This document shows, one piece after another, positions 20,146-61,007 of a stretch of DNA of 64,000 nucleotides; positions within the stretch are counted from its first letter, which is position 1; each line of letters begins with the position of its first letter. The stretch spans positions 1 through 64,000 of the forward strand of contig JAUXAX010000007.1 of assembly GCA_030619685.1 (NCBI GenBank), written 5' to 3'. This DNA comes from Dehalococcoidia bacterium (lineage in GTDB: Bacteria; Chloroflexota; Dehalococcoidia; SZUA-161). Both the position numbers and the translations under genes were made by a program. Under the pieces are notes generated by a model. That model was not told the DNA's origin and did no database searches. It saw only the letters and a list, made by a program, of their open reading frames with translations.

Positions 20146-21456
20146 CTAACCCGAAATGCCTTTGCCAAATGGGTCAGCCCATTGCTTTAGCACAACATCC
20201 AGTTCCGGATTCTCCTTTGCATACTCTGCCAAAGAGATTCCCTGCATTGCTGCGTCAATGGCCTGGCGGAATGCTTTCCCGCCCGCGACCGGACCTTGCG
20301 GATGGGCATGAATGCCGCCTCCCGAACCTATCACAATGTCAGTGCCTAGGTCTGCTATCGCTTTGGGTACCATGGACGGAGTAATCCCACCGGACGGCAT
20401 CGGAAAAGTCGGTTTTAAGTGGTATAGGGGGAACGTCAGGTTCTTGGCAACATTCTTGAATTTGTCGGGAATTACCGGGGCTTTGCCGTAAGGTGCAGGT
20501 ATGACGACCACGTCTGCACCAGCGAGGCGCGGCAGTTTCCCGAGCACTATGTGGGAGCTAACACCATGTAAAGGCGACATGTACATCGCCCCGGCGATGT
20601 CCATGTGGGCGAGAATGGGGACGTTTATGTTGGGATCCTCCGCCAGAGCCTGCATAACTGGCAATCCAACAGCGAGATAGTTTACCATGAGCGCATTGCA
20701 TCCCAACTCCACAGCGCGCCTGGCATTCTCGAAGACTTTTGGCACTGCGTCTGTTATGTTAACGGTATAAAGAGTGTGCTCACCCGTCTCCTCGTAAACC
20801 TGCTTCTCGATCTCCATGTAACGTTTTACACGGCCCTCCACAGAATTGAACGAGGCATCCGCTATCAGTTCATCATCCTTGATAATGTCGCAGCCACCCA
20901 GGGCGGCTTCCCTGAACAGGTTAGCCCCGAGTTCCAAGGGGTAACCTGTGCACGGCTTTATCATGTTGTTTAGAAGGGGTCGACTCAGGACCCCCAGGAT
21001 TTCTCTTATGCCAGTAATGCCGAATTTGGGCCCCTTGAAACCAGCGACATATTTCTCTGGAAACCGGACGTCCAATAGCTTGATATTTCCGCCCATTGAG
21101 ATATTCCCGATTACGGATGTCAATAGCATCGGTATTTGCGCCCCAATGTTGACCTCCGGATAAGCCACCTGGATAACCCAGTTCCTGGTTTGCACCGAGG
21201 GAGGCACCTCAAACTCAAAGTCTGGCACCTCGTACACGCCCAGCACCTTGGCAACATGACGGCGGCGAACCTCCGGAGTCTCGCCTGGAACCGGTACCCA
21301 GGTGCCGGTGCTCTGCTCGACCGCAAGCACCATGGACAGCAAGGGAATAGGCACCTCTGCCGGAAAAGAAGCAAGGTAGGTAGCGATTATGTATTCGTTG
21401 TAGTCAATACCGTCCGGCAGCGCCATAGGGAGCCCTAATATTTCCTCGGTATTCAT
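20146..21456 (-). CDS. RuBisCO-like protein (form IV)
   Basis: A 436-residue member of the RuBisCO superfamily. The activation and metal site is intact: K193-D194-D195-E196 in GGCDIIKDDE aligns with the carbamylated Lys, Asp and Glu of RuBisCO. K167 (IKPCTGYP) aligns with the first Lys of KPKxG, but the second Lys is Cys169. HMDIAGAM replaces the RuBisCO HRAMH-type motif, and PSGGI near residue 375 is the phosphate-binding SGG. These changes place it among RLPs that enolise a phosphorylated substrate rather than fix CO2. Its start overlaps the kinase stop by 4 bp. The kinase probably makes its phosphorylated substrate, as in apiose-type or tetritol-type RLP pathways; the actual sugar is unknown. 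Confidence 0.9.
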   Translation of the reverse strand: MNTEEILGLPMALPDGIDYNEYIIATYLASFPAEVPIPLLSMVLAVEQSTGTWVPVPGETPEVRRRHVAKVLGVYEVPDFEFEVPPSVQTRNWVIQVAYPEVNIGAQIPMLLTSVIGNISMGGNIKLLDVRFPEKYVAGFKGPKFGITGIREILGVLSRPLLNNMIKPCTGYPLELGANLFREAALGGCDIIKDDELIADASFNSVEGRVKRYMEIEKQVYEETGEHTLYTVNITDAVPKVFENARRAVELGCNALMVNYLAVGLPVMQALAEDPNINVPILAHMDIAGAMYMSPLHGVSSHIVLGKLPRLAGADVVVIPAPYGKAPVIPDKFKNVAKNLTFPLYHLKPTFPMPSGGITPSMVPKAIADLGTDIVIGSGGGIHAHPQGPVAGGKAFRQAIDAAMQGISLAEYAKENPELDVVLKQWADPFGKGISG

Positions 21457-23033
21457 TTGGACACCTCCTTACGTAAGCGTGCTTCGTCGAACCTCTTCTT
21501 GTTCAGCCGTTTATAGAAGCGTCGCAGGCTTCTGTATGCCTCCTGATATGAATGGAAAAGTGAATCGTAAACCTTGCGGTTCTCCTCTTGTGGCTTAAAG
21601 ACCTTGTCTACTTTCACAACATCCTTAAGCGCCTCGAAGTTCGGATATATCCCCAGACCTATCGCCGCAATAAGTGCGGCTCCAACTGCTCCGGCCTCTT
21701 GAGGGTCGCGGACGGTCTCAACCCGCCTGCAAGTTACGTCAGACAGAATCTGCATCCAAGGTTCACTCCTGGCCGCTCCACCTATGACGCGAAGCGTTGG
21801 CAGAGGGAATCTGAAGTGTTTGTCCACGATTTCAACAATCCATCTTATGTTGAATGCTACCCCCTCATAGACAGCACGCAGCAAGTTCTCGCGGGTGTGG
21901 TCAGCACTCAGGTTAAGGAAAGCAGAGCGAACGTTGCAGTCAGCTATGGGAGCCCTTTCCCCGTACATCCACGGGGTGAAAATCAAGTAGTTAGAGCCCG
22001 GTGGAACTTGGCCAACTTTCTCGTCCATTATAGCGTAAATGTTGGACATATGGGGATCCCTTTTCTCTGACTTGTAAAGCTCATCACCTATCCACTGTAA
22101 GCAGGCACCGGCTGTTTCCGTTTCAGCGATCAGAAACGCCTTGTTTGGGTCTGCCGAATGGATTGTTGCTGCTCCGTGTTTACCACGGGGCGTACGCTTT
22201 GTTACCACACCCACCCATCCCGAGGTACCAAGGTAGACATGCCCATCACCTTCACCTACAGCACCGGAACCGACAGCTGCACAAGGTGCATCTCCTGCGC
22301 CAGCTATGACCGGCGTGCCTTGGAGAAGTCCAAGCTCACTGGCTGCTTCTCTTGACAACACTCCGACTTGATCAATCGGTTGCACAAGTGGGGGTGCCTT
22401 TTCTGGATCAAGCCCAACATAGCGAAAGAGACCCTTGAGCCACGTTTTCTTCTTGAGGTTAATTCCAAACACGGAAGCGCCTGTCCATTCCATAACCATA
22501 TTGCCTGTGGTCCGATAAATGAGGTAACCATTGACGTCAAGAAAATACTTCATCTTCTGGTATATGTCGGGTTCTTCCGATTTAAGCCACAGTAGCTTCG
22601 GTACGCAATCCTTTCCACATAAGGTAGTGCCGGCAATAAGCGCAAAGACACGAGGGTGAACGAACTTCCTCATTATGCTCTCCGCCTGCTTGCAAGCCCT
22701 GTTATCAAGCCAGATTATTGCGGGCCTTAGGTGTCTTCCTTCTGAGTCCATCGGCACTATACCAAGCATCTGTGCACTAAACGTCACACAAAGTACATCG
22801 TTCGGTGACACTCCTGCCTGCTCTATAAGACGCTTTGTAGTGGTCTTCACAGCGTTCCACCAATCATCAGGCTCTTGCTCAGCCCAGTCAGCCTTTGGAT
22901 AGCAGACGGAGAAATTCTCGGAACATTTGCCGTGGATCTGACCCTTAATGTCTACCAGAACTGCTTTGTTCGCGCTTGTCCCCACGTCATGCGCAACTAT
23001 ATATTTATCCATTTTCCTCAACTCAAGTGACAT
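21453..23033 (-). CDS. FGGY-family carbohydrate kinase (xylulokinase-like)
   Basis: A 526-residue ASKHA-fold sugar kinase. IVAHDVGTSANKAVL is the N-terminal phosphate loop; WLDNRACKQAE carries the catalytic Asp region; PVIAGAGDAPCAAVGSGAVGEG and RVIGGAARSEPWMQILSD are the FGGY adenosine and phosphate motifs. The C-terminal 30 residues are very basic. The start could be ATG 23033 or 23012 (the latter has a close GAGG). First gene of the kinase-RLP-dehydrogenase operon, with a 4-bp overlap to the RLP. Xylulokinase is the nearest label, but substrate range in this family is wide and the RLP partner suggests something other than xylulose. Confidence 0.9.
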   Translation of the reverse strand: MSLELRKMDKYIVAHDVGTSANKAVLVDIKGQIHGKCSENFSVCYPKADWAEQEPDDWWNAVKTTTKRLIEQAGVSPNDVLCVTFSAQMLGIVPMDSEGRHLRPAIIWLDNRACKQAESIMRKFVHPRVFALIAGTTLCGKDCVPKLLWLKSEEPDIYQKMKYFLDVNGYLIYRTTGNMVMEWTGASVFGINLKKKTWLKGLFRYVGLDPEKAPPLVQPIDQVGVLSREAASELGLLQGTPVIAGAGDAPCAAVGSGAVGEGDGHVYLGTSGWVGVVTKRTPRGKHGAATIHSADPNKAFLIAETETAGACLQWIGDELYKSEKRDPHMSNIYAIMDEKVGQVPPGSNYLIFTPWMYGERAPIADCNVRSAFLNLSADHTRENLLRAVYEGVAFNIRWIVEIVDKHFRFPLPTLRVIGGAARSEPWMQILSDVTCRRVETVRDPQEAGAVGAALIAAIGLGIYPNFEALKDVVKVDKVFKPQEENRKVYDSLFHSYQEAYRSLRRFYKRLNKKRFDEARLRKEVSK

Positions 23034-23408: not shown

Positions 23409-24611
23409 ATGAATATGCCCGCGGATAAATATAAAGACTACATGTATTCCTTGGTCAAAAGAGTTATCGATGAGATCGGCCCACGCCCATCTTGCAGTGA
23501 AGAGGAAAAAAAGCTGGGCCGCCTTCTGGTTGAGGAATGGAAGCCGGTTTGTGACAGGGTCGTGGTGGAGAAGTTCACATGCAGTCCTTCCGCGTTTCTG
23601 GGCTCCATTCCTTTGTCAGTATTGCTTTACTTTACTGCCGTCATCCTCTATTGGTTCTACCCCCCGATCTCCTTCGCAATAGCCATCATTAGCTCTATCA
23701 TCCTGTTTTTGGAGTTCAGGTACCATGAGTTCGTTGATTTCCTATTTCCCCGCAAAGAAGGCGAAAATGTCATCGGCGTAATTCGACCTAAGCACGAACC
23801 AAGACAGCGAGTTATCGTCAGCGCTCACATGGATTCGGCATACGAGTACAACCTCTTCTATCACCTTAAAAACGCCGCAATCCTAGTTATGGTAATTGCT
23901 ATCCTAGGACTAGTTGTGGTTTTAGGAGGCAGTCTGGCAAAAACCATTGCGTACTTCGGTGGCTCAGCAGATGCGGCAGCTTTCACCGGAGTTGGAATAA
24001 TGGCAATTGTATTCACCCCTGTTATCGGCCTATTCCTGTTTTTCCATACATACAGGCCAGTCCCTGGCGCCAGCGATGACATGGCAGGTCTCGCCGTAGT
24101 CGCTGGTCTGGCCAAGTACCTTGATGAGTCAAAAAGGAATGGGAATTGGATTCCTGAAGGAACCGAAGTAATTCTACTCGCTACATCATCGGAGGAAGCT
24201 GGGTTACGGGGGGCCAAGAGATACGTGAGAAAGCACCTGAAAGAGATGAAAGAACTCCCAACGTATGGATTGTTCCTGGAAACCATATGCGATGAGAGAT
24301 TTCTGACCGTGATAGACCGCGAAATATTCACTGGTGCGAAACACGACCCTGAACTGGTCAAGATGGCTCAGGATGTGGCCGCAAGCCACGACTGGCCTAT
24401 AACTATCAAGCCAAATCCGTTGGGTAGTACCGATGCTGGCGCCTTTTCGGTGAAAGGAATCCCCTCCATATGCCTGCTTTGCATGGACACTTCCAAAATC
24501 CAGCCAAATTATCATACCCGCGAAGATACCTATGAACACATCCGACCGCAATCGTTGTCAGTGTCGCTTCAGCTAGTCATCGACATGATCGAGTGGATCG
24601 ACAAGAAGTAG
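23409..24611 (+). CDS. Membrane-embedded M28-family zinc peptidase
   Basis: A 400-residue aminopeptidase-like protein. Zinc-site residues are all visible: H140 in VSAHMDS, D223-D224 in PGASDDMAG, E262-E263 in ATSSEEAG, an acidic residue in LETICDE, and the final His in YHTREDTYEHI. Two hydrophobic hairpins interrupt the fold: residues about 64-102 before the first ligand, and about 155-212 between the first and second ligands. The catalytic domain is thus assembled around membrane helices. ATG at 23409 or 23415. Terminator-like hairpin follows. It could be a membrane aminopeptidase; the substrate is unknown. Confidence 0.85.
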   Translation: MNMPADKYKDYMYSLVKRVIDEIGPRPSCSEEEKKLGRLLVEEWKPVCDRVVVEKFTCSPSAFLGSIPLSVLLYFTAVILYWFYPPISFAIAIISSIILFLEFRYHEFVDFLFPRKEGENVIGVIRPKHEPRQRVIVSAHMDSAYEYNLFYHLKNAAILVMVIAILGLVVVLGGSLAKTIAYFGGSADAAAFTGVGIMAIVFTPVIGLFLFFHTYRPVPGASDDMAGLAVVAGLAKYLDESKRNGNWIPEGTEVILLATSSEEAGLRGAKRYVRKHLKEMKELPTYGLFLETICDERFLTVIDREIFTGAKHDPELVKMAQDVAASHDWPITIKPNPLGSTDAGAFSVKGIPSICLLCMDTSKIQPNYHTREDTYEHIRPQSLSVSLQLVIDMIEWIDKK

Positions 24612-25129: not shown

Positions 25130-25269
25130 CCAATGTGAGACCACCAAATTGGAACGCTGGATCACCCAATCGAAACACCCTGCAAGCCGATTGCCCTGTG
25201 TTATTTCGTAGCTGAACCGCCCCTTCAGACTCCCGTTCTGTGCCCTCTTATGTCACCCAGTGTCGCCGA

Positions 25270-25290
25270 GTTCGTTAGCTAAATGTTAGC
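25270..25290 (+). repeat. 21-bp direct repeat, left copy
   Basis: Starts GTTCGTTAGC, ends ATGTTAGC; identical to 26481-26501, and both copies are preceded by GTGTCGC. The two copies bracket the deiodinase-like gene. The left copy supplies the last codons of the truncated lipoprotein on the opposite strand. Confidence 0.85.
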
Positions 25291-25687: not shown

Positions 25688-26305
25688 ATGTTCAAAGCAA
25701 TTCGAGCAAGGAAACGGATCAAAGAATGGCGGAAGCAATTCATACCTCTTGCTCCGAAGGCAGGAGATATGGCCCCAGATTTCGAATTGTATGACACTAA
25801 GGGTAAGGACTCGATGCGTCTGTCTGACCTCAGAGGCAAGAAACCGGTAGCGTTGATCTTCGGCAGTTATACCTGACCACCCTTTGTAAAGGGGACCGTG
25901 AGTCTCCACGATCTCTACGAACAGTATCACGATCGGGTGCAGTTTATCGTAATCTATATGCGTGAAGCGCACCCGGTTGATGGGTGGTGGCTCGGCGGGG
26001 GTGTATTTGGCTTGGCGATGAAAGTGCGCGGGGCGAAAGCCGCCACGGATGTGTATGATCCCAAGACCATGGAGGAGCGCAGACAAATAGCAGCAAGGTG
26101 TGAATCGGCGCTGCGGTATGGGATCCCAACTCTAGTGGATGAAATTGATGACCCAGTCAATCGTGCCTATGCTGCAATGCCTACGCGGCTGTATTTAATT
26201 GGGATGGATGGGCGTGTGGTATATGCCGGAGGATTAGGTCCATTTGGCTTCAAGCCGCAAGAATTGAAGAAGGCTATTGAAAGACTGTTAGACGACAATG
26301 CTTGA
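25688..26305 (+). CDS. Deiodinase-like redoxin with in-frame UGA (probable selenoprotein)
   Basis: Read with the TGA at 25874-25876 as selenocysteine, this is a 205-residue protein of the iodothyronine-deiodinase-like (T4_deiodinase) branch of the thioredoxin fold. The N-terminus has GDMAPDFELYD and LSDLRGKKPVALIFGSYT as in peroxiredoxin-like proteins, then residue 63 = U followed by PPF, exactly the deiodinase active site (GSCT-U-PPF in animals). The same frame continues to the end: FIVIYMREAHPVDGWW, RYGIPTLVDEIDDPVNRAY and a C-terminal KKAIERLL helix. ATG at 25688 follows a GAGGAGTCAACC ribosome site. A SECIS-like hairpin sits 14 bases after the UGA. If not selenocysteine, it is a nonsense-mutated pseudogene. 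No selA, selB or selC is in the window. The two 21-bp repeats flank it. Confidence 0.8.
25891..25907 (+). promoter_or_regulatory. Candidate bacterial SECIS element
   Basis: GGGGAC and GTCTCC form a 6-bp stem (one G-U pair) closing a CGTGA loop with an exposed G-U. The loop begins 20 bases after the UGA, inside the 16-37 base range usual for bacterial SECIS elements. A smaller CCCTT/AAGGG hairpin just upstream (25880-25893) would compete with it. Confidence 0.55.
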
Positions 26306-26665
26306 GCTACTATTTAGTATGTCAAAAACGTTCAATCTTCGAGGAATTGACACTCGGCGACCAGCGGATTTGAAGTGCTACGAATGGCGTGCTGTGAGGT
26401 GCTGCCAGATACCATTCCGCACACCTGTTCGGGGCTGTTGCGTATCTGTTGTGTTGCTCCGTGATGTTCCGTGTCGCTGGGTTCGTTAGCTAAATGTTAG
26501 CAGATGTTGGAGACAGCGTCCGTCCCTGGTGCGGCATGTTTACCTCAATCAGGTCCTGGGTGCTATATTCGCCGGCGTTAGAAATCCGACCGTTGTTCAT
26601 GGAGCGACCCAGACCTACTGGGACGCGACGCCAATGCCCAAGAATTGTGGAGGAGGACTGGAGAA
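26306..26665. other. Intergenic with 21-bp repeat
   Basis: No convincing gene. Holds the right copy of the 21-bp repeat (26481-26501). The promoter of the methyltransferase gene should lie near 26560-26640. Confidence 0.5.
26481..26501 (+). repeat. 21-bp direct repeat, right copy
   Basis: Identical to 25270-25290, with the flanking GTGTCGC shared. Confidence 0.85.
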
Positions 26666-27682
26666 ATGAAAGTGAATCTGTTTGATGCTGAGAATCTGGA
26701 GGCGGCGACGGCGCTACTGGAACTCCACTGGCAATTTCGGGTGTCACGAGTTCTGATGACAGCTCATCAGCTTGGGATTTTCGAAGCCCTCAGGGAGCGA
26801 AAAAAGGCGGCAGAGGTAGCAGCACAATGCGCAACCGACCCGGGCATGACCGAAAAGCTGCTCATCGCATGCTGCGCCCTGGGTGTTGTGCGGCGGGACA
26901 AGGATCATTTCGCCCTGACGCGGTTAGCATCCGATACCCTCTTGCGCGAAAGCCCACGCTATCTTGGCGGCGTTCTCGATCACGGCGAAAGCCTGTGGTG
27001 GGCCAGTACGGGGCTTCCCGATATCATACGCACGGGAGAGCGTGGAGCAGCACCAAAGCCACCTGAACATTTCATCTCCCACTGGCACGAGAACTGGATC
27101 TGGGCAATGCACGGCAACGCTGCCAATGGCGTAGGGCAATGGGTAGCAAGACAAGTAGACTTGAGCGACAGAAGTCTGCTGCTCGACGTCGGTGGGGGTC
27201 CGGGCACCTACAGCATCGCCATGTGCCAACGTTTCCCCAATCTAAGGGCTATAGTATGGGATGTGCCACAAACTATTGCTATTGCGCAGCAGGTGATCGA
27301 GCGGTTCCACATGGAAGACCGTATAGCTGTGAAGGAAGGTGACTGGAACTGCGACGAGTTCGGCACAGGATACGATTGCATCCTCATGTCCAACATAATG
27401 CATGGGCACGGCAGTCAGGCAGAGACGAGGCTGAAGCAGGGAATGCGTGCGCTTGAACCAGGTGGACTGCTTATCGCGCATGATTTCTTGCTGAATAATG
27501 ACAAGAGTGGGCCTCTCCCGGCAGCGCTGTTCAACTTGATGATCGGTGTCTACACTGTGAATGAGCTGATTGCAATCATTCGTTCGGCGGGTTTTGCTGA
27601 CGTGTCTCTTATTGCCTACAACGCCCAGCGAGGGAGCGGCATTGTCACGGGGGCTGTTACCCAGAGGGCGAGAAGTAGCTAG
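26666..27682 (+). CDS. O-methyltransferase-type SAM-dependent methyltransferase
   Basis: A 338-residue protein with the two-domain plan of plant/bacterial O-methyltransferases (Methyltransf_2): an N-terminal winged-helix dimerisation domain (FRVSRVLMTAHQLGIFEAL; ALTRLASDTLL) and a C-terminal Rossmann domain whose SAM motif is LLDVGGGPGTYS (about residue 170). The DVPQTI and EGDWN segments contact SAM, and an MSNIMHGH segment holds the usual catalytic-site His. The ATG at 26666 is preferred over an upstream GTG because a GGAG lies before it. The acceptor could be a phenol, a quinone or a secondary metabolite. It overlaps the convergent small gene by 4 bp. Confidence 0.85.
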   Translation: MKVNLFDAENLEAATALLELHWQFRVSRVLMTAHQLGIFEALRERKKAAEVAAQCATDPGMTEKLLIACCALGVVRRDKDHFALTRLASDTLLRESPRYLGGVLDHGESLWWASTGLPDIIRTGERGAAPKPPEHFISHWHENWIWAMHGNAANGVGQWVARQVDLSDRSLLLDVGGGPGTYSIAMCQRFPNLRAIVWDVPQTIAIAQQVIERFHMEDRIAVKEGDWNCDEFGTGYDCILMSNIMHGHGSQAETRLKQGMRALEPGGLLIAHDFLLNNDKSGPLPAALFNLMIGVYTVNELIAIIRSAGFADVSLIAYNAQRGSGIVTGAVTQRARSS

Positions 27683-42496: not shown

Positions 42497-44185
42497 TCAA
42501 AGCTTCTTCTCGATCTTGGCCCACGAATCGCGTAAAGTGACCGTCCGGTTGAATACCATCCGTTCGCCAGAGGAGTCTTTCGAATCAACACAGAAATATC
42601 CCAGCCGCTCGAACTGATACCGACTTCCCGGGGCTGCGCCCGCCAAGCTGGGTTCGATATACCCCGTCAAAGTCTGCAGCGAATCGGGATTCAAAACGCT
42701 TCCAAAATCAGCCCCATCCCTGACATCGCCGGGGTTCTCCATAGCGAAGAGCCGATCGTAAAGGCGCACTTCAGCCTCGAGCGCGTGGGCAGCCGAAACC
42801 CAGTGAATGGTCCCCCTAACCTTGCGTCCGTCCGGAGCCGTTCCCCCTCGTGTCTCCGGATCATAAGTGCAATGCAACTCAACCACTTCGCCAGTCTGCT
42901 CATCCTTCACCACTCCGACACAGGTGATGAAATACGCATATCGTAACCTTACCTCACGACCTGGGGCCAGACGGAAGAACTTCTCCGGCGGGTGCTCACG
43001 GAAATCATCCTGCTCGATGTAGAGCACGCGTGAAAAGGGTACCTTCCGCGTCCCCATATCGGGGTCTTCCGGATTGTTGACAGCATCTACCTCTTCGGTC
43101 TGGTCTTGGGGATAGTTGTCGATGACCACACGGAGGGGACGCAACACGCACATAACGCGCGGGGAGCGTTTGTTCAAATCCTCCCGGATGCAGTGCTCAA
43201 GCAGCGCAATGTCGATGATGCTATCGGTCTTGGCTACGCCGATACGCTCGCAGAAATTCCCGATGGACTGCGGCGTGTATCCGCGTCTGCGCAAACCCGA
43301 AATGGTCGGCATCCGTGGGTCATCCCATCCGGTGACATGTCCCTGCTCCACCAGTTGCAGCAGCTTTCGCTTGCTCAGCACGGTGTAGGTGAGATTGAGG
43401 CGAGCGAACTCGATCTGCTGTGGATGATAGACTCCCAGTTCGCCAAGAAACCAGTCGTACAATGGGCGGTGATCTTCGAATTCCAGCGTGCAAATGGAAT
43501 GGGTAATTCCCTCGATAGAATCCTCAAGTCCATGGGCCCAATCATACATCGGATAGATGCACCACTTGTTGCCCGAACGGTGATGTTCTGCATGCAGGAT
43601 GCGGTACATGGTCGGATCGCGCAGATTCAAGTTTGGTGATGCCATGTCGATTCTGGCGCGGAGCACCCGGGAACCATCCTCAAACTCTCCTGCCCGCATG
43701 CGTTGGAACAAATCCAGATTCTCTTCGACCGAACGGTTGCGGTGCGGACTCTCCTTGCCAAGATCAATGAGAGTGCCCCGGTACTCTCTGATCTCATCCA
43801 CGCTCAGATCATCAACATAGGCCTTACCGGCTTTGACCAACTGCACAGCGTAATCGTACATTTGATCGAAGTAGTCTGATGCATAAAACAGCCGATCCTC
43901 CCAGTCAAACCCGAGCCAGCGCACGTCTTCTTTGATCGATTCAACGTATTCACCTTCTTCTTTGGTGGGATTTGTATCATCGAACCGCAAATTGCACAGG
44001 CCTCTGTACTGGGCGGCGATGCCGAAATTAAGGCAGATGGACTTGGCGTGCCCGATGTGCAAATAGCCGTTCGGCTCCGGCGGGAACCGCGTGTGCACAC
44101 GCCCCCCGTATTTGTTGTTTTCGAGGTCCTCGTTGATGATATTCCGAATGAAGTCGGAGGGAGCGGTTGATTCAGGTGTGGTCAC
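42497..44185 (-). CDS. glnS: Glutamine--tRNA ligase
   Basis: A 562-residue class I aminoacyl-tRNA synthetase. [16 protein letters not shown] contains the HIGH motif, DDTNPTKEE is typical of GlnRS, and VLSKRKL is the KMSKS equivalent. The C-terminal beta-barrel anticodon domain is present ([17 protein letters not shown]). A GlnRS is a minority trait in bacteria, where Gln-tRNA is otherwise made by GatCAB; the family spread by horizontal transfer. ATG 44185. The divergent gltX starts 181 bp away, and a tRNA-Gln and a tRNA-Glu lie 5 kb downstream. Confidence 0.95.
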
Positions 44186-56127: not shown

Positions 56128-57660
56128 TTATTCGTATACGTTCAGCCTGGGCAATAGGCCAGGAATCTCTTTGAATATCCTGCTAGTGATGGTGGGATCT
56201 ATGTGCTCTACAGGTTTCGCAAGAAGCTCATTCATCCTCTCGTAGGCTAGTGCGAACACATTATCCATCTCCCCATCCCCTTCAAAGGGATAGGGCGCTG
56301 AAAGTTCCCCGCTACGCATCACGCGGCGTATATAGCTGATGTAGAGCTTCTGTGGCGTGGCCACCGCTTCTCTTATTTGCTTCCAGGTCTCAGCGATCTC
56401 TGTTTCGTTAATCCGCGGCGGCCTCAGGAAGAACTTGATCATCTGAAAATGGGCATCATCTATGACAGCCTGGAGAAGACAGAAAACTGAGTTGCAGTCG
56501 AGGAGACCGTATGCACAGTGCAAGTACTGGGGCCCGCTCAGAGTGACTAGTATATCTGAGAACAATCTCTCAATTGAGGCCTGTGTCCCCGGCGTCTTCG
56601 TGTCGCAAACGCCCGCGGTAGAGTAGTTGGGCAATTTGTAGAATCGTGCCATTTGAACGCAGTCGACGGTGTACTGGCTGGTTTCAACGGCACCATAGGA
56701 ATCGCCAAGAGTATCCATCCGCGCTCTAACGGGCACGCTCCCGTAGATCACCGGTGTTCCCTGATTGACCAACTGGCTCAATGCTATGCCTGCTAGGACT
56801 TCAGCGTTTATTTGAGCCATAATGCCAGCTTCCTTGATAGGAGCAGTGCTTCCAGCCTGTGGTGAGGAGGAAACCACTATAGGTAGCCCCCTCCTGCAAA
56901 TCGCAATAAGAGTGTCTGTCGTATCGTCAACGAATTGCAGAGGACTCTTGACCAAACAGGTGATAAAGGAAATGATGGGGTTTTCCTTGAGTTCGTCTTC
57001 GCCTCCAGCTATTAGCTTTGCCATGTTGACCACGTTATCCAGCTGTTTCAGGCTGGTTAGCCCTGACATAACATGTTTGGTGGTGTTATTCAACGAGGCA
57101 AAGAATTTGTTAACATCCTTATTGTCCTCTGTGATATCTTTATCCTGGATATTTACAGTACGGATGTAGCCATCCAGAGTAACCAGATGCTCACAGACAT
57201 GCGCTGACTGGCAGAGGTCAGCAACCGTACCACGTCGCGGGTGAAATTCAGGAACCCGAATCTCAGTGCTGGGGTCAGATTTCTTAACATAGGTTGGGAA
57301 CTCAACATCCAGCCAGATATTGGTTTCAGAGCCGGAAATGAAGTGTACCCTTGGCTCTTCACCATTCATCATCAGAGTGTTGTCCAGGTTCCTGGCACCT
57401 AACTTGACTGTCTTGGGTGCGCTATCGAGAGCATCGAGAACAAGTTTCTCCGGAATCTTCACCAGCCAGCATGGGTGGTCACTGGGAGAGACTGAGGTAA
57501 CCTCCGCGCCGTTGCCATCGAATATCTCGGCCGCTTCACGATTAAAACATGTCAAGCCAGGATCATTCAGAATCTCCATGGAAGCATGGTGAATCTGCAT
57601 TACCTGTTCCTTGGTCATCCTCTCGTAAGGGGTATCAATCAGAATTCCTTCTCTGGGCAC
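56128..57660 (-). CDS. Trimethylamine-methyltransferase-family (MttB-like) protein, no Pyl
   Basis: A 510-residue TIM-barrel methyltransferase of the MttB superfamily. It is complete with no in-frame amber codon, so it lacks the pyrrolysine of archaeal MttB and belongs with MtgB-like enzymes that demethylate quaternary amines such as glycine betaine. Blocks such as GCxxSTAGVCDTK-type (YSTAGVCDTKTPGTQASIERL) and LPIVVSSSPQAGSTAPI are conserved with the second MttB here. GTG 57660 is the start. Substrate unknown. A corrinoid protein gene (57866) is immediately upstream. Confidence 0.92.
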   Translation of the reverse strand: MPREGILIDTPYERMTKEQVMQIHHASMEILNDPGLTCFNREAAEIFDGNGAEVTSVSPSDHPCWLVKIPEKLVLDALDSAPKTVKLGARNLDNTLMMNGEEPRVHFISGSETNIWLDVEFPTYVKKSDPSTEIRVPEFHPRRGTVADLCQSAHVCEHLVTLDGYIRTVNIQDKDITEDNKDVNKFFASLNNTTKHVMSGLTSLKQLDNVVNMAKLIAGGEDELKENPIISFITCLVKSPLQFVDDTTDTLIAICRRGLPIVVSSSPQAGSTAPIKEAGIMAQINAEVLAGIALSQLVNQGTPVIYGSVPVRARMDTLGDSYGAVETSQYTVDCVQMARFYKLPNYSTAGVCDTKTPGTQASIERLFSDILVTLSGPQYLHCAYGLLDCNSVFCLLQAVIDDAHFQMIKFFLRPPRINETEIAETWKQIREAVATPQKLYISYIRRVMRSGELSAPYPFEGDGEMDNVFALAYERMNELLAKPVEHIDPTITSRIFKEIPGLLPRLNVYE

Positions 57661-59537: not shown

Positions 59538-61007
59538 TCAGTCTACGATGCCAGCTATCTCCGAGAGCACCTGGCCTCTCGTGGTTTCAGGTAAGCTGAA
59601 ATGACGTGCTGCCATAATCTCTTTCACTTTTTCCGCCGCCCTCTCCCAGGTGGTTTTTCCACCCCGAGCCTCCCAATCCTCCCTGCTATCCCTATTGCTA
59701 AGGGAGGGTTCATAGTGCTCGCTCCGCATAAACCGCCTGGTATGCTTTGCAGTGACGAAATTGCCCCCTGGGCCCACATCTTTGATGAGATCAAAGGCCA
59801 GCGTGTCTTCGTTTACCTTTATGCCCTCGACCGCCCTCATTACCATTCCCAGTATCTCGTTATCTATGACATACTTCTCGTAGGAGACAGTGAGAGCGAA
59901 TTCCATCAGCCCTGCAGCATCGTGAATGAAATTTGCACCGGCCAGAGCGCAGAGCAGGGTGGTGATTGCAGATTCATAGCCACTCTGTGCGTCCAACACC
60001 TTGGAGTCGGTCATGCCACCAGTGGCGTAGAAGGGGAGTTTGTAGAACTGGGCCATCTGGGCACCAGCCGCATTGATGAGGCCCATTTCAACGGAGCCAG
60101 CCAGATACTTGAGGTCCCTGAGATCCGTGTTGCTGGATACCGAGCCAAGAATAACCGGTGTCCCCGGATTGACAATCTGGGTAAGCATCACGCCCATCAA
60201 GGAGTCAACGGTCTGGATCACCAGGTTCCCAGCGAGCGTCACCGGTGAGGTAGCTCCGCACAGTGGCTCAGCAGGACAGACCACGGGTATGCCACTTTTG
60301 GCAATGGCTGCGATGAAGTCACCGTATTCCCCATCCATCTTCAGCGGGCTTATGCTGCAGGCTATCATGGAGATAATAGGGCGCTGGCGAAGTCTCTCGC
60401 CAGAGCCAGCAACGATCTCCGCCATCCGTATCACCTGTTTAACTCCATCGAAGGTGAAAAGCCCTCCCATGACATGCGTGGTGGGATTGTCTAGACCGGC
60501 AAAGAAGCGGTTTACATCCACCTGCTCTACGGGCAACTCGTTGGGGTAGGTAGGCAGTAGGAAAAGATGAATATTATCTAGCCCATCGACCAGTTTGGCA
60601 ATGCGCTTTAAGTCGTCCAGGGTAGCCAACTGCTTTTCCCCGGTCTCCTGACGGTACACATAGAGAGCGGTTCCCCCAGTCCCTGTATAGACGCGGTTTC
60701 CGCCGAGGAGAATGTCGTGCTTCTCATCCTGGCCACAGAGCCTGACCTCCGACGGTGCCGTTCCTATGAGCTCCATGGCCTTTTTCTGAGGCAGGCGCAC
60801 CAAGCGCCTTTCGTGGTCTACCGAGGCCCCCGCTCCCCTGAAAAGTCCTAGTGCAGTATCTGAGTTTACCTGAAAGCCTACTTCCTCGATTACCTGTATC
60901 GCGGTCTGGTGAACCTTATGTATGGCCTCTTCGGTAAGGGGCTTGAAGCTACCTCCTGCTAGTCCTCTTCGAACCATATCCTGAGATTCTACCTTCTTCC
61001 CCGACAA
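59538..61007 (-). CDS. Second MttB-family methyltransferase, no Pyl
   Basis: A 489-residue MttB-superfamily protein, clearly paralogous to but diverged from the 56128 gene (YATGGMTDSKVLDAQSGYES; PVVCPAEPLCGATSPVTLAG). Complete without an amber codon. The start is probably TTG 61007, which overlaps the 3' end of the upstream activation-domain gene by about 19 bp. It likely acts on a different methylated amine than its paralogue. Confidence 0.92.
   Translation of the reverse strand: MSGKKVESQDMVRRGLAGGSFKPLTEEAIHKVHQTAIQVIEEVGFQVNSDTALGLFRGAGASVDHERRLVRLPQKKAMELIGTAPSEVRLCGQDEKHDILLGGNRVYTGTGGTALYVYRQETGEKQLATLDDLKRIAKLVDGLDNIHLFLLPTYPNELPVEQVDVNRFFAGLDNPTTHVMGGLFTFDGVKQVIRMAEIVAGSGERLRQRPIISMIACSISPLKMDGEYGDFIAAIAKSGIPVVCPAEPLCGATSPVTLAGNLVIQTVDSLMGVMLTQIVNPGTPVILGSVSSNTDLRDLKYLAGSVEMGLINAAGAQMAQFYKLPFYATGGMTDSKVLDAQSGYESAITTLLCALAGANFIHDAAGLMEFALTVSYEKYVIDNEILGMVMRAVEGIKVNEDTLAFDLIKDVGPGGNFVTAKHTRRFMRSEHYEPSLSNRDSREDWEARGGKTTWERAAEKVKEIMAARHFSLPETTRGQVLSEIAGIVD

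Follow-up and report, generated by a model that had tools for sequence, protein, structure and literature searches.

Bacterial deiodinase-like selenoproteins are a known kind of selenoprotein, on record since 2005, when the first of them were described from the Sargasso Sea as four selenocysteine (Sec) sequences with Cys homologues; in the portions of that report available to us a redox function was proposed and left open, and the homologue table gives 4, 6, 0 and 0 in the family's row (PMC1088965). The corresponding row of the 2008 GOS table reads 22, 12 and 21, with no motif given in the accessible part of the source (PMC2398784), and tables in two reviews, from 2022 and 2026, list the family with a UxxC motif, a mismatch to the clade studied here (PMC9312934 and PMC13188914). 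Excerpts of two further sources record a fusion of a deiodinase-like domain with an EF-hand (PMC9402790) and mention gut bacterial deiodinase-like enzymes, naming no gene (PMC12521424). The searched sections of the literature on this family yielded no characterised bacterial enzyme.

The window, by which we mean the whole stretch of 64,000 nt analysed here (contig JAUXAX010000007.1 of a Dehalococcoidia bacterium), carries a gene that is almost certainly translated as a selenoprotein of the bacterial deiodinase-like family (PF00837), a judgement that leaves its substrate aside. The features of the locus are as follows.

25688..26305, + strand: deiodinase-like selenoprotein gene, 205 codons, UGA read as Sec, TGA stop
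25874..25876, + strand: in-frame UGA (Sec63), which the alignments put at the DIO2 and DIO3 active-site position
25891..25907, + strand: SECIS-like hairpin, 6-bp stem 25891-25896/25902-25907, loop CGUGA 25897-25901
25898..26305, + strand: 135-aa ORF with a GTG start downstream of the UGA, the usual gene-caller form of the family, judged an artefact
25955..25987, + strand: deiodinase loop-D signature YMREAHPVDGW, codons 90-100, with Y90, E93, H95 and W100 invariant in alignment A3
26099..26101, + strand: codon 138 (Cys138), the sole Cys besides Sec63; its position is observed, its resolving role proposed

The gene starts at ATG 25688, with AGGAG immediately 5' of the ATG. An earlier note on this DNA had claimed that the frame continues across TGA 25874-25876 (codon 63), and its coordinates proved exact, the frame staying open until the stop TGA at 26303-26305. 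Translation with U gives 205 aa with the active-site segment FGSYT-U-PPF. ORF calling with table 11 (at least 80 aa) returned only the 135-aa ORF from GTG 25898 in the deiodinase-like frame.

The product matched the Pfam model T4_deiodinase (PF00837) over residues 24-200 with 99 bits (cut-off 27), and the Redoxin (35.8 bits) and AhpC-TSA (32.2 bits) models also scored above their cut-offs. The NCBIfam model NF038285 (deiodinase_rel) reached 201.8 bits, under its cut-off of 250, and covered profile positions 176-344 of 347 only. A PDB sequence search returned DIO3 (4tr3, E 5e-21) and DIO2 (9h48, E 1.8e-16) as the top matches, and the earlier claim that the UGA falls at the animal deiodinase active site was right in substance. 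DIO2 and DIO3 were also the best PDB structural matches of the predicted model (pLDDT 92.2), exceeding peroxiredoxins and ResA by 3-4 Z units, with AhpE, Bcp and ResA next in rank; a thioredoxin/deiodinase fold is predicted from the model. The N-terminal helix (residues 2-21) is charged-looking, and a membrane anchor is absent by eye. On these sequence features the gene is assigned to the known bacterial deiodinase-like selenoprotein family (PF00837), its UxxC sub-type excepted. With the family members described in the available parts of PMC1088965 and PMC2398784 it shares PF00837, Sec or Cys at the deiodinase site, a hairpin just past the UGA and an occurrence on prokaryotic contigs; it differs in belonging to the Chloroflexota (Dehalococcoidia) and in that Sec machinery was traced in its nearest relative. 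The hairpin lies in the coding region, whereas the eukaryotic element is located in the 3'UTR, according to the same portions of PMC1088965.

Residues S60, T62, U63, Y90, E93, H95 and W100 align with the animal deiodinase network, each being kept in 48-49 of the 49 rows of alignment A3, and the loop start E-A-H-P-x-D-G-W is nearly invariant. The likeness to animal DIO1-3 (4tr3, 9h48) extends over the fold, the Sec position, this Ser/Thr/Tyr/Glu/His/Trp network and the start of loop D. In contrast, identity in the structural alignment is 25-32%, and the window protein is without the proximal Cys, the relay His, the Arg/Lys clamp and, by eye, the N-terminal anchor. With DIO residues numbered after PMC11592359, PMC9141512 and our own count, the window protein has Tyr61 for DIO3 Cys168, Pro125 for the relay His, Ile146 for Cys239 and Leu183 for Arg275. 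At the relay-His position (DIO1 His174, DIO2 His182), Pro125 is given by the DIO3 alignment, where 47 of the 49 rows have Pro and 2 have His; the DIO2 alignment is gapped there, and the window protein contains no His beyond His95. The carboxylate-clamp position (DIO3 Arg275, DIO2 Lys241) is occupied by Leu183; 24 of the 49 rows have Leu there, 5 have Arg and 2 Lys.

Unlike the UxxC listed in the tables of PMC9312934 and PMC13188914, the window protein has neither a UxxC nor a CxxU motif, and carries a conserved Cys138. The Sec+3 position is F in the window (UPPF), F or Y in 47 of the 49 A3 rows and Cys in none. Cys is found at position 138 or 139 in 47 of the 48 U-form rows of A3. It is missing in the U-form L025, and the Cys-form P0176 has a Cys in the corresponding segment, so the Sec63-Cys138 pairing is not strictly Sec-specific. 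Sequence does not favour the distal Cys of DIO3 (Cys239) as a homologue of Cys138, because it aligns with Ile146. The searched parts of the literature on the bacterial family make no mention of Cys138.

We take the protein to be a Sec/Cys redox enzyme whose active site is of deiodinase type. SelB and tRNA-Sec would read UGA 25874-25876 as Sec, guided by the adjoining 3' hairpin, a decoding step that is strongly supported, and the product would be 205 residues long, adopt the predicted thioredoxin/deiodinase fold and, as judged by eye, lack a membrane anchor. The Sec63 selenolate, positioned by Ser60, Thr62, Tyr90, Glu93, His95 and Trp100, would attack a soft electrophilic atom in a small substrate; the oxidised selenium would be resolved by Cys138 to give a selenenylsulfide, and recycling may proceed via a thioredoxin-type or low-molecular thiol. 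Given a selenoprotein, the chance of a peroxide or other non-halogen redox substrate is about even; a halogen substrate (iodo- or bromo-organic) is a less probable candidate, and only a small share falls to any other substrate. Iodothyronine deiodination appears unlikely.

The reading that fares best for this selenoprotein, falling just short of an even chance, is a Sec/Cys peroxidase or thiol-disulfide reductase in which halogens are not involved. The Redoxin and AhpC-TSA models score above cut-off, peroxiredoxins and ResA-type thioredoxins share the core fold, and AhpE, Bcp and ResA follow DIO2 and DIO3 in the structural ranking. Sec-Cys pairs are moreover typical for two-residue peroxidase cycles. 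The usual peroxiredoxin motif, however, has Thr three residues ahead of the catalytic residue, a spacing absent here, where Thr62 directly adjoins Sec63; the missing UxxC/CxxU motif also weighs against a peroxidase or reductase, as do the invariant deiodinase loop-D residues, which would be superfluous for a plain redoxin.

More tentatively, the same selenoprotein could be a reductive dehalogenase whose Sec63 takes iodine or bromine off organohalogens, as animal deiodinases do. The retention of the Ser, Thr, Sec, Tyr, Glu, His and Trp network together with the E-A-H-P-x-D-G-W loop start is consistent with such an activity, and so is the lead of DIO2 and DIO3 over peroxiredoxins and ResA. It is harder to reconcile with Tyr61, Pro125, Ile146 and Leu183 at the DIO3 Cys168, relay-His, Cys239 and Arg275 positions and with a protein devoid of His after His95; nor was any dehalogenase family present among the 10 recurrent-neighbour proteins scanned (3 without a Pfam match). 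We know of no iodinated substrate for the hosts of the gene, which also counts against a dehalogenase. The earlier note had suggested a possible reductive dehalogenase of aryl or alkyl iodides; the network is kept, but the proximal Cys, the relay His and the carboxylate clamp are absent. Still more speculative is a distinct deiodinase-fold branch with Sec63 and a distal resolving Cys138 that couples to thioredoxin and reductively dehalogenates natural organoiodine or organobromine compounds in sediment and groundwater Chloroflexota, which we consider improbable; if true, it would amount to a corrinoid-free dehalogenation route, hidden by gene callers that cut genes at UGA. Together, the pairing of Sec63 with Cys138 and a set of deiodinase residues that is kept only in part suggest a testable hypothesis on the working of this fold outside thyroid biology.

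Conservation of the UGA was assessed at the protein and DNA levels. Of 1368 candidates in a protein search, 1216 were relatives at E <= 0.001, and 120 of these relatives were listed. Pieces of 130-155 aa without the active-site motif made up 107 of the 120 matches listed, and the other 13 were full-length proteins that have W in place of Sec; a second protein search, made with the Cys form of L072 as query, added a 14th W form. W at this site in the 14 database proteins most likely reflects a code-4 gene-caller reading. The second search also yielded at least 19 N-terminal pieces (P0190-P0208), all stopping at FGSxT, one residue short of the Sec site, and it seems that long Sec forms related to NF038285 exist, in the shape of these 19 pieces. 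Full-length Cys forms with FGSxTCP were P0123, P0124, P0126, P0127 and P0176. NF038285 and the long Cys forms (P0123, P0124, P0126 and P0127) have a redoxin domain homologous to that of the window protein, with Cys at the Sec position; the long forms differ from it in their length of 348-360 aa and long N-terminal extension. A further entry of 135 aa, P0175 (Desulfoluna spongiiphila, 6.68 Mb contig), is labelled iodothyronine deiodinase and begins past the active-site segment, probably through the same post-UGA shortening. Because family entries are mis-annotated as C-terminal pieces, as N-terminal pieces or with W at the Sec site, automatic annotation conceals the active site. The family is well conserved and largely mis-annotated, and has been known by sequence for about 20 years with no substrate found in the literature searched.

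A genome scan with one genome per species found 355 relatives; the 80 top-ranking ones were used further as loci L001-L080. In all of these except L066, which is without the segment, the Sec site was located, and the 79 loci make 80 rows with the window. The codon at the site is TGA in 79 of the 80 rows, TGT in one (L072, Flavobacteriaceae) and TGG in none. Replacement of U by Cys in homologues, which the earlier note had raised, was thus seen in DNA (L072) and in protein (the five Cys forms above). In the genome of L072 (G053), selA, selB and selD are all under cut-off. Compared with its nearest relative L001, the window gene shows 86% protein identity and zero indels in 615 bp, with dN/dS of 0.39 upstream of the UGA and 0.17 downstream; judged by these ratios, purifying selection is acting on both sides of the UGA. 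Stop codons in 79 genes (the window and 78 loci) comprised 39 TGA, 21 TAA and 19 TAG; for L013 the table gives an internal TGA, and its true end is likewise TGA.

Several loci depart from the common pattern. L064 has a frameshift downstream of the UGA. L013 (6001-6645) contains a second in-frame TGA at the Trp101 position, its frame being otherwise open to the normal family end; a sequencing error, a mutation or a second Sec is possible. Two deiodinase-like selenoprotein genes occur in one genome bin in two cases (L007 with L010, and L041 with L078). In L079 (973-2505) the selenoprotein is fused in frame to a C-terminal domain of about 300 aa, which by eye resembles a carbohydrate esterase in its GQSNM motif.

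The stem of 6 bp described in the earlier note, 14 nt past the UGA, is present exactly so (GGGGAC/GUCUCC, loop CGUGA). In an alignment of 78 ungapped rows of 48 nt, 75 of them distinct (L064, L066 and L072 dropped), the stem pairs are formed in 87.6% of 450 cells, whereas shifting the partners by 1-3 columns gives 28-52%. Double-sided changes were counted in 42 cells versus a shuffled mean of 16.3, a count equalled in 0 of 500 shuffles, and the stem covariation score was 0.331 versus 0.196 shuffled. Two of the five covariation measures, pairs with double change (3) and further pair types (11), were not above shuffles; in 37 of the 75 rows the two outermost bases do not pair. The excess of synonymous-codon identity over the 78 rows gave z values of 11.8 (+6), 13.5 (+8), 15.2 (+9) and 21.8 (+10), with 3.3 at +7; since rows were treated as independent, these values are inflated by kinship, and what matters is how the positions compare with one another, whatever the magnitude of z. 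Codon -3 (Ser60), which lies outside the hairpin, reached z 12.2, for which we can offer no explanation beyond the codon-box inertia of Ser, and the next highest value was 6.3. The single-sequence folding energy of the window hairpin is ordinary (z -0.43 for 48 nt and -1.47 for 29 nt). By covariation and codon constraint, the element is classed as a bacterial SECIS-type hairpin downstream of the UGA, its small apical loop containing G.

That the TGA is a genuine stop, either as a nonsense mutation or as the boundary between two small genes (62 aa and the 135-aa ORF from 25898), is very improbable. Standard ORF calling does yield the 135-aa ORF and no full-length gene, and the 107 short pieces among the 120 listed relatives fit such a stop, but 79 of the 80 rows, which span several phyla, keep the TGA, the hairpin is conserved, purifying selection acts on both sides and the catalytic residue would be lost. 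A strain-specific nonsense mutation or pseudogene, which the earlier note had named as a possible refutation, was rejected on the 79 TGA rows and the dN/dS values. Reading of the UGA as tryptophan (code 4 or 25), suggested by the 14 W forms in the database, was likewise rejected and is the least probable of all, since 39 of the 79 family genes, the window gene included, stop at TGA, so that UGA is not simply reassigned, TGG occurs in 0 of 80 DNA rows at the site and an active-site Trp would be senseless against Sec or Cys.

For decoding of the UGA as Sec, the machinery of the window's lineage was judged from its closest relative, G001 (the genome of L001, Dehalococcoidia bacterium E44_bin56), and would be expected to correspond to it. 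GlnRS of the window (42497-44185) is 92% identical to that of G001; 12 of 18 genomes matched in this comparison, the second-best at 71%. Of the Sec genes that the earlier note had looked to, selA (C172:8889-10238, 544 bits), selB (C172:10331-12172, 362 bits) and tRNA-Sec (C172:12206-12298, 75.5 bits, anticodon TCA) adjoin each other in G001; SelD was under cut-off (best 68 bits versus 125), possibly owing to an incomplete bin. A complete lack of Sec genes, the other refutation named in the earlier note, was not seen in this relative. SelB was above cut-off in 62 of the 78 genomes reached via the loci (41 of 50 and 21 of 28), compared with 2 of 14 controls, and under it in 16 of the 78, whose completeness is unstated. 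In the first 50 genomes, tRNA-Sec exceeded the gathering score in 45 and reached at least 60 bits in 43, the 60-bit line being drawn since the gathering score was also exceeded in 5 of 14 controls and since scores of about 50 bits occur for other tRNAs, probably those for Ser. Five of the nine genomes without SelB in this set do carry tRNA-Sec of at least 60 bits, while G008, G029, G031 and G048 have neither SelB above cut-off nor such a tRNA-Sec. SelA and SelD were each above cut-off in 7 of 9 genomes (controls 1 of 14 and 2 of 14, respectively). Two strong tRNA-Sec genes each were observed in G009 (69.9 and 67.8 bits) and G045 (75.3 bits twice).

Record titles assign 49 of the 80 loci to Chloroflexota, a count that includes L036, which we presume to belong there; the non-Chloroflexota loci include Poribacteria, Latescibacterota, Planctomycetota, Neomarinimicrobiota and Desulfobacterales bins. 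Among 301 genomes from the phylum of G001 (G001 included), 140 had a match at E 0.001 and 5 scored above 120 bits, all 5 showing one TGA. The enzyme had been called unusual for this organism, which stands as to its patchy occurrence (5 of 301 Chloroflexota genomes above 120 bits) but not otherwise, with 355 relatives in the genome collection and a family known since 2005 (PMC1088965). In a 57-row tree, the long Cys forms made one supported clade among the bacterial rows, with the Cys form P0176 apart. A very long branch separates animal DIO2 and DIO3 from the bacterial rows, outside which they fall, in a tree whose bootstrap had yet to converge; as this branch has no reliable place, we make no statement on descent. 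The viral contigs searched contained no relative, leaving a viral origin unsupported, and a plasmid origin was rejected, with one distant plasmid match only (27% identity, Mycolicibacterium).

The window gene lies between a peptidase M28 gene (23409-24611, +) and an O-methyltransferase gene (26645-27682, +), with no operon partner evident. When the window was compared with 78 loci (79 places, many of which have short flanks), no family of neighbouring ORFs of at least 100 aa was shared by more than 7. A phosphofructokinase and an EamA transporter were found upstream in 6 loci of one sub-clade, and the remaining recurrent neighbours scanned belonged to unrelated or no Pfam families, GrdB-like genes excepted. 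GrdB-like genes with an in-frame UGA in UxxC occur near the deiodinase-like gene in L001 (1407-2204), L008 (4444-5661), L011 (2531-3745), L014 (2915-3862), L046 (8713-9939 and 10071-11321) and L048 (2215-2973). The L014 gene matches Pfam GRDB, and one L046 copy reads UxxxC. It is possible that the GrdB-like gene is a second selenoprotein in functional association; tblastn found none in the window.

A 31-bp direct repeat (94%) flanks the window gene at 25260-25290 and 26471-26501, 1211 bp apart. The second copy is part of a longer repeat (about 113-141 bp) that recurs in G001 (L001 647-787), which has only two matches to it, one on the deiodinase contig; folding gives no support (z 0.20) to an integron-like reading of the repeat around the gene. 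Elsewhere in the window, an Rfam PYLIS_3 match (55 bits, 59915-60014, -) sits inside an mttB-family gene (59538-61007, -). The frame of this gene is without TAG, so it would encode a non-pyrrolysine MttB homologue, the match is no evidence for Pyl decoding, and pyrrolysine decoding in the window was rejected. A second MTTB-family gene is located at 56128-57660 (-). At 20146-23033 (-), a RuBisCO-large-like gene adjoins an FGGY-family kinase gene, followed by a saccharopine-dehydrogenase-like gene, and these possibly form a RuBisCO-like sugar pathway.
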